Positions 56,040-61,264 of a stretch of DNA of 64,000 nt are shown here, piece after piece. A program made the position numbers and the translations under genes. Positions within the stretch are counted from its first letter, which is position 1, and each line of letters opens with the position of its first letter. Origin of the DNA: Lentilactobacillus sp. SPB1-3 (GTDB lineage: Bacteria > Bacillota > Bacilli > Lactobacillales > Lactobacillaceae); contig NZ_CP168151.1 in assembly GCF_026913205.2 (NCBI RefSeq), forward strand, positions 1 to 64,000, given 5' to 3'. Under the pieces are notes generated by a model, which saw nothing but the letters and a program-made list of their open reading frames with translations, was not told where the DNA came from and searched no databases.

Positions 56040-56332
56040 ATAAAAAAATCCCTTGGAATTAATATTCCAAGGGGCGAACTAGTCTATATTCGCGGTACCA
56101 CCCAAATTATAACGACTTCACAGTCATTATCTCTCCATGTACGGCGACGTATCGCGATACACTGGCGCTTTAATGGGCGCACCCAGCAAACACTAAATTT
56201 CCCTCGCATTTGCAGCTCAGAAACTACTTTCGTCATTCACTTTCAGTAACTCAATTTCACCTAAAATGAGTCTCTCTGCTCTAAACATGAATACTACTTT
56301 TTTCTTCATAGCCATTAGTCATCATTTAATAT
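56040..56332 (-). promoter_or_regulatory. T-box riboswitch of brnQ (branched-chain)
   Basis: Minus-strand T-box TTTGGGTGGTACCGCG (56106-56091), terminator CCCTTGGAATA / TATTCCAAGGG with a T run (56078-56042), Stem I closing pair GCAG/CTGC. The specifier is read tentatively as GTA (Val, 56227-56225). Promoter TTGACA (56367-56362) and TATTAT (56344-56339), spacer 17. Confidence 0.88.
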
Positions 56333-56381: not shown

Positions 56382-57446
56382 CTACAAGTTCAGAAAATCC
56401 GCAACTTCACTAGTTTTAACTGACATGATAGCTGGACTCCCTACTTCTTTGAGATAAACCAAGTTTAAATGACCATCATGGCTCTTTTTATCGTTCTTAA
56501 CTTTCGATAATATCTGTTCAGTATCTATTTTTGGCAAGTCGATAGGTAATCCAACTGCTACTAAACGGTCCTTCAGTTGGTCAGTAACTTCTTGCGGGGT
56601 TAATCCATGATCTGTAAACACTTGACTAATTGCTACCATCCCAATTGCCACAGCTTCACCATGACGCAGGTTACCATCACTTAGTGCCTCAACGGCATGC
56701 CCAATTGTGTGACCAAAATTAAGTAACTGACGTAAACCGCCTTCTTTTTCATCGGCCTCCACCACTTCTGCCTTATATTTGATTGCCAACTCACTAATTT
56801 GCTCGGCATGTTCAAAAATATCAGCTGGTGAATTAATAGTTCTAATTAATTGCCATAAACTATGATCTGTTAATCCGGCAACTTTAACCACCTCACCATA
56901 TCCTTCAACTAAATCTCGCTCCTTAAGTGTCCGCAATGTCTGTGGATCGACAATCACTAAATCAGGTTGTAAGAATGAACCCAAAATATTTTTTGTGGTC
57001 CCTAAATCCACCGCTGTTTTACCACCAACCGAACTGTCTACTTGAGCCAATAGGGAGGTTGGTATCTGAATAAGGTCTATCCCTCGCATATAAGTTGCGG
57101 CAAGAAAGCCAGCTAAATCACCAGTAACACCGCCACCTAATGCAATTACACCATCATCTCTATTAAATCCATCAACAGTCATCTGAGTAGCAAGTTTGCC
57201 CAAAACTGCGAGTGATTTAGATTCCTCCCCAGCTTCGAATTGGTAACTAAACACCTTAAAACCAGCTTGCCCTAAAGAATCAGCCACTTGCTGTTGATAT
57301 AATGGCGCAACATTATCATCACTGATTAGAGCTACTTTTCTAGTCGACCAAACTGAAGTAACTAATTCACCAGTACTTTTTAATAGGCCCTGGCCAATTT
57401 TAACTTGGTAAGGATGATCTGTGATATGAACGTCTAAAATTTCCAT
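56382..57446 (-). CDS. aroB: 3-dehydroquinate synthase
   Basis: 354-aa, full-length NAD- and metal-dependent enzyme for the second shikimate step. GGGVTGDLAGFLAATYMRGI is near residue 103, PTSLLAQVDSSVGGKTAVD near 128, and LLNFGHTIGHAVE holds the metal-binding His near 243. Its ATG overlaps the aroF stop in a TAATG junction. Second gene of the aroF-aroB transcript. Confidence 0.97.
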   Translation of the reverse strand: MEILDVHITDHPYQVKIGQGLLKSTGELVTSVWSTRKVALISDDNVAPLYQQQVADSLGQAGFKVFSYQFEAGEESKSLAVLGKLATQMTVDGFNRDDGVIALGGGVTGDLAGFLAATYMRGIDLIQIPTSLLAQVDSSVGGKTAVDLGTTKNILGSFLQPDLVIVDPQTLRTLKERDLVEGYGEVVKVAGLTDHSLWQLIRTINSPADIFEHAEQISELAIKYKAEVVEADEKEGGLRQLLNFGHTIGHAVEALSDGNLRHGEAVAIGMVAISQVFTDHGLTPQEVTDQLKDRLVAVGLPIDLPKIDTEQILSKVKNDKKSHDGHLNLVYLKEVGSPAIMSVKTSEVADFLNL

Positions 57447-58453
57447 TACGCATCCACCACTTTCACTGCTGGATTTATTAGATTACGAATTGCAAAGGCT
57501 TTGTCCGCCATTGCTTGGTACTCATCCGGTTTCAATGCTTGCGCACCATCTGAAAAAGCATGAGCCGGATCATCATGAATTTCAACTACTAATCCGCTAG
57601 CCCCAATGGCTACTCCTGCCAATGCTTCGCGAGTAACAAACTCCGTATGACCAGCGGCATGACTAGGATCAACGATTACTGGGTAATGTGATAATTTTTG
57701 TAAAACTGGTACTGAACCAACGTCTAAAGTATTTCTCGTGTATTTATTATCAAAAGTTCTAATGCCCCGTTCTGCGATCATTATTTGGGTGTTGCCACTG
57801 GCAGCAATGTATTCTGCGGCGTTCAAAATATCATCGATTGTGGCAGACATGCCTCGTTTCAACATAACCGAAGTATTTGTTTTACCAACAGCCTTAAGTA
57901 ACGAGAAGTTTTGCATGTTACGAGCACCAATTTGGAAAATGTCAGTGTATTTACCAACCATCTCAACGTGATCTTCATCCATCACTTCGGTTAATACGTC
58001 CATATCGAATTCATCAGCGGCTTGCCGAAGAAACTTTAATCCATCCTCGCCTAATCCTTGAAATGAGTATGGTGATGTTCGGGGTTTGAAAGCTCCTCCT
58101 CTAAGAATCGTTGCACCACCAGCCTTAGCAACGGCAGCCATTTTTCTAACATGAGCTAACGACTCAACGGAACAAGGTCCGGCCATCATGGTGAAATTAT
58201 CTCCTCCAATCAAACTATGAGCAGTTTGAATAACTGTATCTTCTGGATGAAATTCTCGGCTTCCCTGGACAGCAGTTGGGTGATTCTCAATAATTCTTTC
58301 AGCTGCTTGTAATTCCTGTTGGTTTAATCCATCTCGATCAATTCCTTGAATCGCAACTCGATTTCCATGAGTAAATACTGATACTTTACCTGAAAGGCGA
58401 TCCTCAATTTCTTGAATAGTAGCTTCCTGTCCTGGTTTCATAATAATAATCAT
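57446..58453 (-). CDS. aroF: 3-deoxy-7-phosphoheptulonate (DAHP) synthase
   Basis: 335-aa type I-beta DAHP synthase with an N-terminal ferredoxin-like regulatory domain (residues 1-70, MKPGQEATIQEIEDRL) and a catalytic barrel: MMAGPCSVES near 88, GGAFKPRTSPYSFQGLG near 118, VIVDPSHAAGHTEFV near 270. It commits PEP and erythrose 4-phosphate to aromatic amino acids. GGGAG precedes the ATG. The long leader upstream encodes a Tyr-Tyr-Phe-Trp peptide and two tandem terminators. Confidence 0.95.
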   Translation of the reverse strand: MIIIMKPGQEATIQEIEDRLSGKVSVFTHGNRVAIQGIDRDGLNQQELQAAERIIENHPTAVQGSREFHPEDTVIQTAHSLIGGDNFTMMAGPCSVESLAHVRKMAAVAKAGGATILRGGAFKPRTSPYSFQGLGEDGLKFLRQAADEFDMDVLTEVMDEDHVEMVGKYTDIFQIGARNMQNFSLLKAVGKTNTSVMLKRGMSATIDDILNAAEYIAASGNTQIMIAERGIRTFDNKYTRNTLDVGSVPVLQKLSHYPVIVDPSHAAGHTEFVTREALAGVAIGASGLVVEIHDDPAHAFSDGAQALKPDEYQAMADKAFAIRNLINPAVKVVDA

Positions 58454-58486: not shown

Positions 58487-58521
58487 ATAAAAACCCCGCA
58501 GTATCTAGATCCACTGCGGGG
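58487..58521 (-). terminator. attenuator terminator T2 (aro leader)
   Basis: CCCCGCAGT (58521-58513) and ACTGCGGGG (58502-58494) around a GGATCTAGAT loop, then TTTTTATTT. It lies 35 bases before the aroF ATG. Its 5' arm CAGTGG (58516-58511) can instead pair with CCACTG (58556-58551) from T1. Confidence 0.85.
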
Positions 58522-58534
58522 CGAAATTTTGGGA

Positions 58535-58575
58535 AAATAAAAAGGTCCCACAGTGGTTTTAAATACTGTGTGACC
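58535..58575 (-). terminator. attenuator terminator T1 (aro leader)
   Basis: GGTCACACAGT (58575-58565) and ACTGTGGGACC (58554-58544) pair, one mismatch, followed by TTTTTATTTT. Its 5' arm overlaps the antiterminator strand TTTTGGTC. Confidence 0.85.
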
Positions 58576-58645
58576 AAAAATTATGCTCAACAAATCTTGG
58601 CCGCACAAGTTGTAGACAGTGTCCGCAACTTGTACGTCGTAGACA

Positions 58646-58699
58646 CTAGCGTGACCAAAAATAATAGGCTTGTGCAATTGTTAGTGATTTGTTTTGCAT
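58646..58699 (-). CDS. aromatic leader peptide of aroF-aroB
   Basis: Seventeen codons: MQNKSLTIAQAYYFWSR, then TAG. AGGAG (58713-58709) lies nine bases before the ATG. The run Tyr-Tyr-Phe-Trp sits near the end, as in classical amino-acid leader peptides, and the gene controlled is DAHP synthase, whose products lead to exactly these three amino acids. Overlap of the Phe-Trp codons with one of two competing pairing strands supports a regulatory role. Translation is not proven. Confidence 0.75.
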   Translation of the reverse strand: MQNKSLTIAQAYYFWSR

Positions 58700-58740
58700 A
58701 ATTAGAATCTCCTGTTTAAGTTTTAATTTAATTGTTATGA

Positions 58741-58769
58741 AGTTTAATATTAGTACCTTTGATTGTCAA
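58741..58769 (-). promoter_or_regulatory. promoter of aroF-aroB
   Basis: TTGACA (58769-58764), 17-base spacer, TAAACT (58746-58741). Its -35 is 30 bases from the -35 of the divergent trpE promoter. Confidence 0.75.
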
Positions 58770-58798
58770 GGACTAAAGTATTTTTTTCTAATTATACA

Positions 58799-58833: not shown

Positions 58834-59124
58834 AATATAAATTTACCGCCCATTAAACCGTAGAAGTGGAGATCAAGGTTAGGATGCCCGCACAGAGAGT
58901 TACAGAAGCTGAAAAGTAACCGGACACAGCTAGCTAAATGGACCACCGAGGGTTTCTCTGAACAAAGTACGAGGAAACGTAACGACATACGTCAGTTGTC
59001 AGAGGTATGTTTGTACCTCACAAAGGGCAGCGTTATTTGACTTGAATAATGAAGTTAATCGCGCTGAATTAAGGTGGCACCGCGGAATCTCCGTCCTTAA
59101 CATTTTTTGTTGGGCGGTTTTTTT
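58834..59124 (+). promoter_or_regulatory. Trp T-box riboswitch (trpEG)
   Basis: The T-box AAGGTGGCACCGCGG is at 59071-59085. The specifier TGG at 58939-58941 lies in the same ATGGACCAC context as the trpD leader. The terminator is 59091-59124 (CCGTCC...GGGCGG, T run). It is a paralogue of the 24.1 kb leader, with the downstream strand GAGGGTTTCTCTGA conserved. Confidence 0.93.
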
Positions 59125-59141: not shown

Positions 59142-59219
59142 ATGAAGACCAAACGATGGCAGTCCTCGTTAAATTATCGAATAACCACATTTAACGGAGG
59201 AAAAAATTATGAACATTGA
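59142..59219 (+). CDS. leader ORF with Trp codon overlapping trpE
   Basis: Twenty-five codons beginning MKTKRWQSS, with AGGAGG seven bases before the ATG. It runs through the trpE SD and ends in a TGA eight bases inside trpE, in another frame. The KRWQ stretch and the 12 bases AAACGATGGCAG are shared with the trpD leader ORF. Ribosomes finishing this ORF would reinitiate at trpE, so it could couple trpE translation to Trp-tRNA supply. Confidence 0.6.
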   Translation: MKTKRWQSSLNYRITTFNGGKNYEH

Positions 59220-60684
59220 ACAATTATTACCCTTAAAAAATGATTTCGCCCTATTACCTATCTCGATAAACTTTAAATCAACGTCATTTGATCCCTTAGC
59301 GATCCTGCATGAATTTGAAAACAGCGCTAAGCCATCTTTTGTGATGACCTGCAAACCAAAACAAAGTGAGGATGGTTACACATTTATTTGTCTCAATCCA
59401 GAAGCCAGTTACACCTATAAAGATGGGCAATTAACCGTCGATCATTTCGTTGATGAACCACAAATCAAAAACGTTAATCTGCATCAATTTATCGACAAAT
59501 TAATTAACCAACATCGAGCTCCCAAGATGGATGAATTACCACCATTTGTCGGCGGATTAGTCGGTTACTTTAGTTATGATTATGCGAAGTATGCAACTTC
59601 AGCAATCATTGAGCAAGTCGATAATCCTAATCAATTAGACGATGCTGATCTAATGTTAGTGAAAACTGTAGTCGGCTATAATCATGCCACCAATCAAGTA
59701 ACTATCAGCAAACTGGTTGATGCGGGAAAGATTGATCAGCTTTTTGATAAAACAGTTACAGAGTTAACACAAATAAAACAACGAATAATTAGCTTAGATG
59801 ATTCTAAACCTATTAATTCACCACGTCTCACACCGCTACAATATCAATTTTCATTACCAGAATTCTCGAAACGAGTGTTAAAGACTCAACAACACATTAT
59901 CGATGGAGATATTTTTCAATTAATTCTTTCTAACCCCAAAAATGCTCAAATTTATGGTTCTCTCCTCGAAATGGCTGATCGTTTTTTTAAACAAAATCCT
60001 TCTCCCTACCATTTTTATTTTCATCATAATGATTTCGAATCGATGGGTGCTTCACCAGAAACATTAATTACTAAAAAGGGAAATCGTCTTTTTTCATATC
60101 CACTCGCCGGCACTCGCAAGCGTGGTAAAAATGTCGTTGAAGATAATTTTTTTGCTCACGAATTACAAACCAATGAAAAGGAATTATCAGAACATAACAT
60201 GCTAATTGATTTGGGAAGGAACGATCTTGGTCGTATTAGTAAATTCGGATCAGTCAAAGTCGTAGCCGCTCGAAAATTATTAAAATTTGCCAATGTTATG
60301 CACTTAGGCTCAATTATTGAAAGTACGATTACTGATAAAACCACAACTATGGATATCGTTGACTCAGTCCTACCTGCTGGAACTTTATCAGGTGCACCGA
60401 AAGTTTCAGCTATGCAAATAATTGCCCAGCTTGAAGGTAATAAGCGTGGCATATATGGTGGTGGTATTGGCTATTTAGGATTTGATGGTGATTTAGATTT
60501 ATGTATCGGAATTCGCTTAGTTTATCGAAAAAGAAACCAATTAGTCATCCATTCAGGAGCTGGCATCGTTGCGGACAGCATCGCAAAATACGAGTACCAA
60601 GAATTTAATAATAAAGCCAGTGGCGTTGTCAACTCACTTTATCCAATTTCAAAGGAGAAAACTGCCCATGAATTTTCTAATTGA
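59209..60684 (+). CDS. trpE: anthranilate synthase component I
   Basis: 491-aa chorismate-utilising enzyme making anthranilate with TrpG-supplied ammonia. The C-terminal catalytic domain is typical: LSNPKNAQIYGSL near residue 240, GASPETLITKKGNRLFSYPLAGTRKRG near 280, DLGRNDLGRISKFGSVKV near 340, SGAPKVSAMQII near 395. The N-terminal region lacks the usual LLES tryptophan-feedback motif, reading FVMTCKPKQSEDGYTFIC instead. GGAGG precedes ATG 59209. It overlaps trpG by 17 bases. Confidence 0.94.
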   Translation: MNIEQLLPLKNDFALLPISINFKSTSFDPLAILHEFENSAKPSFVMTCKPKQSEDGYTFICLNPEASYTYKDGQLTVDHFVDEPQIKNVNLHQFIDKLINQHRAPKMDELPPFVGGLVGYFSYDYAKYATSAIIEQVDNPNQLDDADLMLVKTVVGYNHATNQVTISKLVDAGKIDQLFDKTVTELTQIKQRIISLDDSKPINSPRLTPLQYQFSLPEFSKRVLKTQQHIIDGDIFQLILSNPKNAQIYGSLLEMADRFFKQNPSPYHFYFHHNDFESMGASPETLITKKGNRLFSYPLAGTRKRGKNVVEDNFFAHELQTNEKELSEHNMLIDLGRNDLGRISKFGSVKVVAARKLLKFANVMHLGSIIESTITDKTTTMDIVDSVLPAGTLSGAPKVSAMQIIAQLEGNKRGIYGGGIGYLGFDGDLDLCIGIRLVYRKRNQLVIHSGAGIVADSIAKYEYQEFNNKASGVVNSLYPISKEKTAHEFSN

Positions 60685-61264
60685 TAACTACGATAGTTTT
60701 TCATATAACCTGAGCCAATTAATTGGCAACCTAACCAATGGCAATATTACCGTTTTAAAGAATGATGACCCAAAAATTAATAATCTCAATAAATTAAATC
60801 CTGAACATATCATTCTGTCACCCGGACCAGGAAGACCTGAAAACGCTGGACAGTTAATGGATGTTCTTAATCACTTTATTGGCAAAGCCCCGATTCTGGG
60901 TGTTTGTTTGGGACATCAAGCGATTGCAGAAGCATATGGTGTTAATGTTGTTCATGCGAATAAATTAATGCATGGTAAGCCGTCTAACGTCACCCTTTTG
61001 CGCCATAATAAATTATTCGCTAATTGCCCCAGCACGTTCCCAGCGGCTCGTTATCACTCATTGGCCGTCGCTCATGGACCATTACCAACAAATTTAACCA
61101 TTGATGCAGTCTCAGATGATCAAGAAATTATGGCTATTTCAGACGAACAACGAGCCGTTTATGGCGTGCAATTTCATCCTGAATCAATCATGACTGACCC
61201 ATACGTCGCCAATCAAATCATTATGAACTTTTTAGCGATAAATACTGAGTCAGTTCATGCTTAA
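60668..61264 (+). CDS. trpG: anthranilate synthase component II (glutamine amidotransferase)
   Basis: 198-aa class I amidotransferase. The nucleophile Cys80 is in LGVCLGHQAI, the His and Glu in GVQFHPESIMT near 180, and the N-terminus FLIDNYDSFSYNL is typical. ATG 60668 follows AAAGGAG; the frame extends 33 codons into trpE and is not the start. It overlaps the end of trpE, so subunits are made together. It may also serve folate (PabA) synthesis if no other copy exists. Confidence 0.95.
   Translation: MNFLIDNYDSFSYNLSQLIGNLTNGNITVLKNDDPKINNLNKLNPEHIILSPGPGRPENAGQLMDVLNHFIGKAPILGVCLGHQAIAEAYGVNVVHANKLMHGKPSNVTLLRHNKLFANCPSTFPAARYHSLAVAHGPLPTNLTIDAVSDDQEIMAISDEQRAVYGVQFHPESIMTDPYVANQIIMNFLAINTESVHA

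Follow-up and report, generated by a model that had tools for sequence, protein, structure and literature searches.

The enterobacterial trp, phe and his leader-peptide attenuators combine regulatory codons with an alternative antiterminator and terminator. In low-GC Gram-positive bacteria, T-boxes are the usual expectation for aromatic genes, and aromatic regulation in this group was reportedly studied by Panina et al. in 2003. Leader-peptide attenuation is already known in Firmicutes, as the accessible parts of several papers describe (PMC2965389, PMC5794164, PMC9413887); the Staphylococcus aureus ilv-leu peptide and the His leaders of bacilli share this mode of control with the leader considered here but serve other amino acids (PMC5794164, PMC2965389). 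The uORFC-13-1 of Acholeplasma likewise places an upstream ORF and a terminator before aroF, but its U run codes for at least one Phe and it is reported, in the accessible text, from Acholeplasma and environmental sequences only (PMC8632094). The trpB motif (RF04312, SRC-39-1) has been published as a strong candidate for a riboswitch, and its representatives, more than 900 by the authors' count, lie mostly before an uncharacterised ABC transporter and sometimes before trpB; the authors left a classic attenuator open as an alternative, and the available portions of the paper do not mention a leader ORF (PMC11109978). Finally, sRNA 2410 (RF02863) is presented in the available part of its source as an Enterococcus faecium sRNA seen as two transcripts (PMC5593968). 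Among the mostly open-access papers listed in the literature search, none was found to describe an aromatic leader-peptide attenuator in Lactobacillales.

We analysed the aroF leader within a window of 64,000 nucleotides (the whole stretch of Lentilactobacillus sp. SPB1-3 DNA under study) and consider it very probable that this leader is a ribosome-mediated transcription attenuator of aroF-aroB. A preliminary description had already read it as a leader-peptide attenuator; that finding is correct in essence, and its reach is wider than described. Compared with the enterobacterial attenuators, the window leader has more alternating helices (A, B, C, T1, E and T2) and pairs its codons in a further helix (D), while the family to which it belongs often lacks a U tract at T1 and carries a tandem terminator. 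It shares with the trpB motif a hairpin whose right shoulder holds the antiterminator, followed by a terminator, and the likeness extends to the place of that motif before TrpX-type ABC transporters and trpB, behind a Trp-codon leader ORF in 88/95 matches read. Neither the RF04312 nor the RF02863 model matches the window leader. RF02863 differs further in being annotated as an sRNA gene, and it does match relatives of the leader.

The aroF leader and its alternating helices

All elements of the leader lie on the minus strand, upstream of aroF (57446..58453, ATG at 58453; TIGR01361), which encodes a B. subtilis-type DAHP synthase (closest named AroF found: Lentilactobacillus kosonis, 93 %), and aroB (56382..57446; 3-dehydroquinate synthase, TIGR01357). 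A promoter-like site, TTGACA-N17-TAAACT (58741..58769), carries 10/12 consensus bases; promoter-like matches in that region are not commoner than in shuffles (11 vs 10.0), and TTGACA is also present in most of the longer upstream stretches of relatives. The Shine–Dalgarno sequence AGGAG (58709..58713), which has SD-like counterparts in relatives, precedes the leader ORF MQNKSLTIAQAYYFWSR (58646..58699, stop TAG), identified from the sequence and its orthologues. The repeat TTTTGGTC occurs at 58660-58653 and again at 58579-58572, and GGCCAAGA lies at 58602-58595. Promoter, SD, ORF, repeats and two hairpins had been reported previously, and each was recovered to the base.

The Tyr-Phe-Trp codons (region 1, 58653..58662) form the 5′ strand of helix D, whose partner is 58602-58593. 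The latter belongs to region 3 (58593..58608), which provides the 3′ strand of D, part of hairpin B and the 5′ strand of antiterminator C. Region 4, UUUUGGUCACACAG (58566..58579), is the 3′ strand of C and overlaps the 5′ arm of T1. The antiterminator had been recognised in the preliminary description, but its extent was understated, as it pairs 58608-58595 with 58579-58566 (13/14 pairs, counted by eye). Two alternating hairpins between the stop codon and T1 had been overlooked. Hairpin A (58618..58647), formed by AGUGUC (58647-58642) and GACACU (58623-58618), overlaps the leader stop codon, excludes hairpin B and is also visible by eye in distant leaders. Hairpin B (58603..58635) pairs GUACAAGUUG (58635-58626) with CAACUUGUGC (58612-58603) and is extended by helix D.

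Hairpin T1 (58544..58575), which contains an A.G mismatch within its stem and has a loop of 10 bases, is followed in the window species by the U tract UUUUUAUUUU, and T2 (58493..58522) is an intrinsic terminator with a U tract; a simple terminator scan of the leader reported T2 and not T1. Helix E (58511..58556) joins the T1 3′ arm, CCACUGUGGG (58556-58547), to the T2 5′ arm, CCCGCAGUGG (58520-58511), including CCACTG at 58556-58551 and CAGTGG at 58516-58511, and excludes both T1 and T2. By base complementarity, the leader RNA can therefore adopt exclusive helix sets, an OFF set of D with B, T1 and T2, and an ON set of A, C and E. The leader folds at −78.3 kcal/mol against −47.8 kcal/mol for shuffles (sd 4.36, z −7.0), an energy reached by 0/200 shuffles.

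In the mechanism that we propose, a ribosome supplied with charged tRNA would run to the stop codon, cover the 5′ strand of A and depart; the codon region would then pair with region 3 atop hairpin B, region 4 would be left free, and T1 would form and free T2, so that transcription terminates. When Tyr-tRNA or Phe-tRNA (perhaps also Trp-tRNA) is scarce, the ribosome would stall on YYFW, masking the codon strand of D and leaving A free. Region 3 would then capture region 4 as helix C and block T1, the T1 3′ arm would capture the T2 5′ arm as helix E, and RNA polymerase would continue into aroF. We infer this behaviour in cells from the helices and from the folding described below.

An Rfam scan detected no known family on the aroF leader, and the T-box model RF00230 had no match on the leader strand; over the whole window, the scan returned a single T-box at the gathering threshold. 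One T-box (56067-56318, minus strand, 109.9 bits) precedes a gene for a branched-chain amino acid carrier of the brnQ type. Another RF00230 match (58852-59101, plus strand, 88.3 bits, just under the gathering threshold of 93), with specifier UGG by alignment, precedes divergent anthranilate synthase-like genes at 59209-61264. With this UGG T-box on the plus strand and the leader on the minus strand, one intergenic region likely holds both a Trp T-box and a leader-peptide attenuator.

Conservation, covariation and predicted response to stalling

aroF was found in 20/24 genomes of the genus; these genomes and two relatives provided 21 distinct leaders after one duplicate was dropped. All 21 have preserved, upstream of aroF, a peptide that ends in an aromatic run (in leader L021, the contig ends there and the start codon is doubtful). 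The codon run is YYFW, YYYW, SYYW, YFYW or FYYW in 20/21 leaders; the remaining one, that of Lactobacillus sp. MRS-253, has YYYQ. Aligned, the 21 leaders permit five helices, D (codons with GGCCAA..), A, B, C and T1, and in MRS-253, whose sequence is largely different, all five re-form with few mismatches. Double-changed cells numbered 32 in D, B and T1 together (9.8 in shuffles) and four in A and C (1.6 in shuffles, the count being reached by 11/500). Orthologous leaders thus keep the aromatic codon run and its complementarity to region 3 despite sequence change, which supports the leader-peptide reading; it withstands the refuting condition set in the preliminary description, orthologous leaders with the terminators but not the peptide or the duplicated repeat.

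For helix D, we aligned 72 leaders, 70 of them distinct. In these 70, 97.7 % of cells are paired and 54 are double-changed, against 13.6 in column shuffles (reached by 0/500) and 21 with the partner slid by one; conserved aromatic codons with covarying GGCCAAGA pairs, which the preliminary description had suggested looking for, are present in relatives. Pair types in helix D did not exceed those in shuffles (13 vs 13.9). Changes of Tyr codons, of Tyr to Phe and of Trp to Gln are mostly compensated on the opposite strand, so the codons seem to be kept both as codons and as a strand of helix D. A caveat is that A4 and A6, two of the alignments used, had been fitted to the D, B and T1 structure. 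In A6 (46 diverse leaders), double changes occur in 29/31 pairs of D, B and T1 (265 cells vs 72). In A4, double changes in helix C at a fixed register were not above column shuffles (193/500 reach the count), probably because the register shifts between genera.

In D, C, T1 and E, cognate duplexes are on average stronger than those obtained by swapping strands between genera, and an antiterminator and a terminator that exclude each other are found in the leader set. Mean energies for helix C were −14.3 cognate, −11.9 in swaps and −6.7 in shuffled sequences, and for helix E −21.7, −16.7 and −13.4, respectively. Leaders whose cognate energy is reached by under 10 % of swaps numbered 11/70 for C, 29 for D, 33 for T1 and 28 for E.

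The effect of a stalled ribosome was modelled by folding the transcript up to the T1 loop with all RNA 5′ of the ribosome leading edge removed. The median probability of upstream RNA occupying the T1 5′ arm (n=70) was 0.79, 0.78 and 0.75 with the A site at codons 1–3 of the run; it fell to 0.42 at the fourth codon (W or Q) and to 0.37 at the stop, and was 0.24 in the absence of a ribosome. Values for the window leader were 0.86 (Y), 0.86 (Y), 0.83 (F), 0.41 (W), 0.36 (stop) and 0.09 (no ribosome), a contrast reached by 0/100 shuffles of this leader. A contrast above 0.3 was obtained in 34/70 leaders and 0/207 shuffles, and one above 0.1 in 56/70 leaders and 10 % of the 207 shuffles, leaving 14/70 leaders at 0.1 or less. 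In the window leader, the plateau covers Tyr, Tyr, Phe and Trp if the leading edge is set 10 or 11 bases from where the A-site codon begins; at 13 bases it extends to Phe, and at 15 bases to the second Tyr. Of the three amino acids originally proposed to be sensed, Tyr and Phe are thus predicted by folding, while Trp sensing in the window leader is borderline but possible in this model.

The two tandem terminators of the preliminary description fared unequally. At T2, the U tract has at least six U in 68/69 leaders, and no T2 was found in one (L155). At T1, at least six U occur in the 9-base stretch in 34/69 leaders and four or fewer, that is, no clear U tract, in 30/69, as counted automatically without curation at positions taken from the model alignment, which are off in a few rows. 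T2, with its U tract in 68/69 leaders, is therefore the constant terminator rather than T1, and in many species T1 perhaps acts only as a relay. The best downstream partner of the T1 3′ arm (at least six pairs) lies inside the T2 5′ arm in 66/69 leaders, the exceptions being L149, L154 and L162. The T1–T2 coupling proposed earlier is therefore supported at the level of sequence, its pairing being conserved and longer than stated, but its dependence on the ribosome is hardly seen at equilibrium. Before the T2 3′ arm is made, median probabilities of helix E at equilibrium were 0.67 stalled, 0.65 at the stop and 0.55 free. At full length with region 4 held, T2 beats E in most species (median 0.92 vs 0); in the window leader, E beats T2 (0.85 vs 0.01). 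We rejected equilibrium folding as proof of the E step, as it does not discriminate by ribosome position, and kinetic control would therefore be needed in most species.

Relatives of the leader and their target genes

A covariance model built from the 21 leaders (R1) matched 84/397 Lactobacillaceae genomes (E≤1) in 16/40 genera. Of the 69 R1 matches listed outside the genus, 60 were fetched, and in 55 of these an SD-led ORF with an aromatic run ends a few codons past the model start, as judged with a loose SD pattern. L146 has the peptide and no SD by the pattern used. The weak matches L188–L191 (E 0.03–0.15) were rejected as having no leader, although an ORF without an aromatic run passed the pattern in L189. 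The Trp codon is absent from L143, L144 and L147, in the genus holding Limosilactobacillus caccae.

The first downstream gene was annotated for eleven of these Lactobacillaceae places, the others being sized only. It encodes DAHP synthase (L171, L187), shikimate dehydrogenase (L133), chorismate synthase (aroC, L149), transketolase (L150, L151, L160), whose product erythrose 4-phosphate is a substrate of DAHP synthase, or an aminotransferase (L183, L184, L186), with a D-2-hydroxyacid dehydrogenase next in L183 and L186. L183 and L184 represent a compact variant in which hairpin B lies inside the reading frame (..YFWFFHKHL*) and hairpin A is missing by eye. In L185, a compact YYFGYF leader precedes a PTS EIIC_2 family gene without an evident aromatic role.

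Model R2, built from the 72 leaders, matched 17/395 Lactobacillales genomes at E≤0.01, with leaders before DAHP synthase (L200, L203) and transketolase (L195, L196). Model R3, built from 46 diverse leaders including new ones, matched 187/395 Lactobacillales genomes in 58/80 genera and, in an overlapping sample of the class, 14/398 genomes, all but three of them Lactobacillales. Searched for a second copy in the window's own genome, R2 (E≤10) returned the leader itself and an antisense match attributable to the T1/T2 palindromes, and R3 returned one extra weak place (152447-152544, plus strand, E 0.008).

We inspected 60 R3 places hand-picked for diversity among the listed matches. Of these, 59/60 have a short ORF with aromatic residues at its end, frequently ..LNNYYFSYFR, and 52/60 have an SD by pattern; one place (L233) was rejected as it has no leader ORF. 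The next gene is aroE or encodes a TrpX-like binding protein, a transketolase or an aminotransferase in 58/60 places (best match against a twelve-protein panel), and Enterococcus columbae is a named example of the leader outside Lactobacillaceae. L199 carries tandem TrpX-like genes, each with an aromatic leader (140-281, ..AYYYSYFR; 1501-1622, ..FNFSYFRRCL). Judging from these sequences, relatives of the switch appear to be common in lactic acid bacteria, and the same chassis with other codons appears to occur in many Lactobacillales.

Codon identity and competing explanations

The RF04312 model returned 11 matches in 9/190 Bacilli genomes and 133 listed matches in 113/193 Lactobacillales genomes. 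We read 95 of these, namely the best 92 of the 133, with the 41 weakest left out, and three from the Bacilli search alone. An SD-led ATG ORF whose stop falls in the 45 bases preceding the motif, or barely inside the motif, is present in 91/95; Trp occurs in the last 12 codons of that ORF in 88/95, and two Trp codons lie close together in 59/95 (e.g. WQNWRR, WQSWRR). The corresponding frequencies in shuffled upstream DNA (n=1900) are 5.0 % (ORF), 0.6 % (Trp) and 0 % (two Trp). Seven matches are without such a Trp ORF. L295 and L375 carry YYFSYFR, L312 has a GTG start and WQSWHR, L373 has WQSR with neither ATG nor SD, and no fitting leader ORF was seen in L368 and L296. In the seventh, L294, the match follows a His leader (..FHHHHRFKGL, with HHHH) and precedes a hisZ-like gene (218 bits, under the cut-off), as though His codons had been fitted into this chassis. 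trpB itself lies downstream of L301 and L306. In L299, the ORF that follows a Trp leader (..LNHSWQSR) is a group II intron reverse transcriptase, and the intron may sit between the leader and its target gene. With a Trp-codon ORF preceding 88/95 matches, the trpB motif is probably the Trp branch of such a switch and, reading from these ORFs, most likely works by attenuation through a Trp leader peptide, in Lactobacillales at least.

The regulatory codons follow the target, with Trp before trpX or trpB, His before the hisZ-like gene and Tyr/Phe before a separate clade of TrpX-like proteins. The TrpX-like proteins behind Trp leaders scored above the curated TrpX cut-off of 390 bits in 10/10 cases tested (406–483), and those behind Tyr/Phe leaders scored below it in 10/10 (308–373). 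In a tree of 107 proteins, taken from 118 after 11 without a leader label by pattern were left out, 79 Trp-leader and 28 Tyr/Phe-leader proteins separate completely; this is one split and not many independent events, yet different substrates are predicted from it.

Beyond the regulatory codons, the peptides of L228–L382 often keep a Leu/Ile/Val-Asn pair and a late Arg. It is conceivable but improbable that the leader acts as an arrest peptide, whose nascent chain stalls the ribosome on the free aromatic amino acid rather than merely on tRNA charging: the pair precedes the codon run in 42/52 order-wide aromatic and 47/88 Trp leaders, its Leu codons are varied, and Arg occurs in the last six residues of 46/52 and 85/88, respectively. 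The window peptide, however, has no such pair (IAQAYYFW), the Lactobacillaceae set has it in only 28/55 and a late Arg in only 9/55, and simple tRNA starvation explains the match of codon to target. That match also argues against a riboswitch that binds an aromatic amino acid or a shikimate metabolite as its ligand and in which the short ORF would be incidental, a reading that we regard as very improbable. The strongly conserved structure, and the classing of the trpB motif as a strong candidate in the accessible text (PMC11109978), would suit a riboswitch; in contrast, conservation extends to the SD, to the start and stop and to the regulatory codons, helix D is built from the codons themselves, the residues encoded (YFW, W, H) vary with the gene that follows, and the visible structure is a chain of simple alternating helices.

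The RF02863 model matches 10/13 order-wide loci scanned, three above gathering, and RF04312 weakly matches 4/13. In leaders before aroE and a TrpX-like gene, RF02863 lies on the codon region, hairpin A and helix D, and its position suggests that this sRNA is an attenuator leader. That the structures are ordinary tandem terminators of a short transcript, as the accessible account of the two E. faecium transcripts might suggest (PMC5593968), with aroF uncontrolled, is scarcely credible given their position right before aro and transporter genes and the conserved peptide and antiterminator, and attenuation too yields a terminated leader.

The attenuator reading can be extended to one modular chassis across Lactobacillales, a generalisation that we find plausible though somewhat short of probable. 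Alternating helices would relay ribosome position to a terminator about 140 bases away, with codon swaps setting the amino acid (Tyr/Phe/Trp for shikimate genes, Trp for trpX and trpB, perhaps His for hisZ). The trpB motif and sRNA 2410 would be included, T1 would serve in many species as a relay freeing T2, and the Leu-Asn ... Arg frame may add a nascent-chain stall. TrpX-like transporters behind Tyr/Phe leaders should carry Tyr or Phe rather than Trp, a prediction from the leader codons. In low-GC Gram-positives, the finding would put the entry point of aromatic amino acid synthesis under leader-peptide attenuation, and for the trpB motif, an orphan among published riboswitch candidates, it offers an explanation that can be tested.
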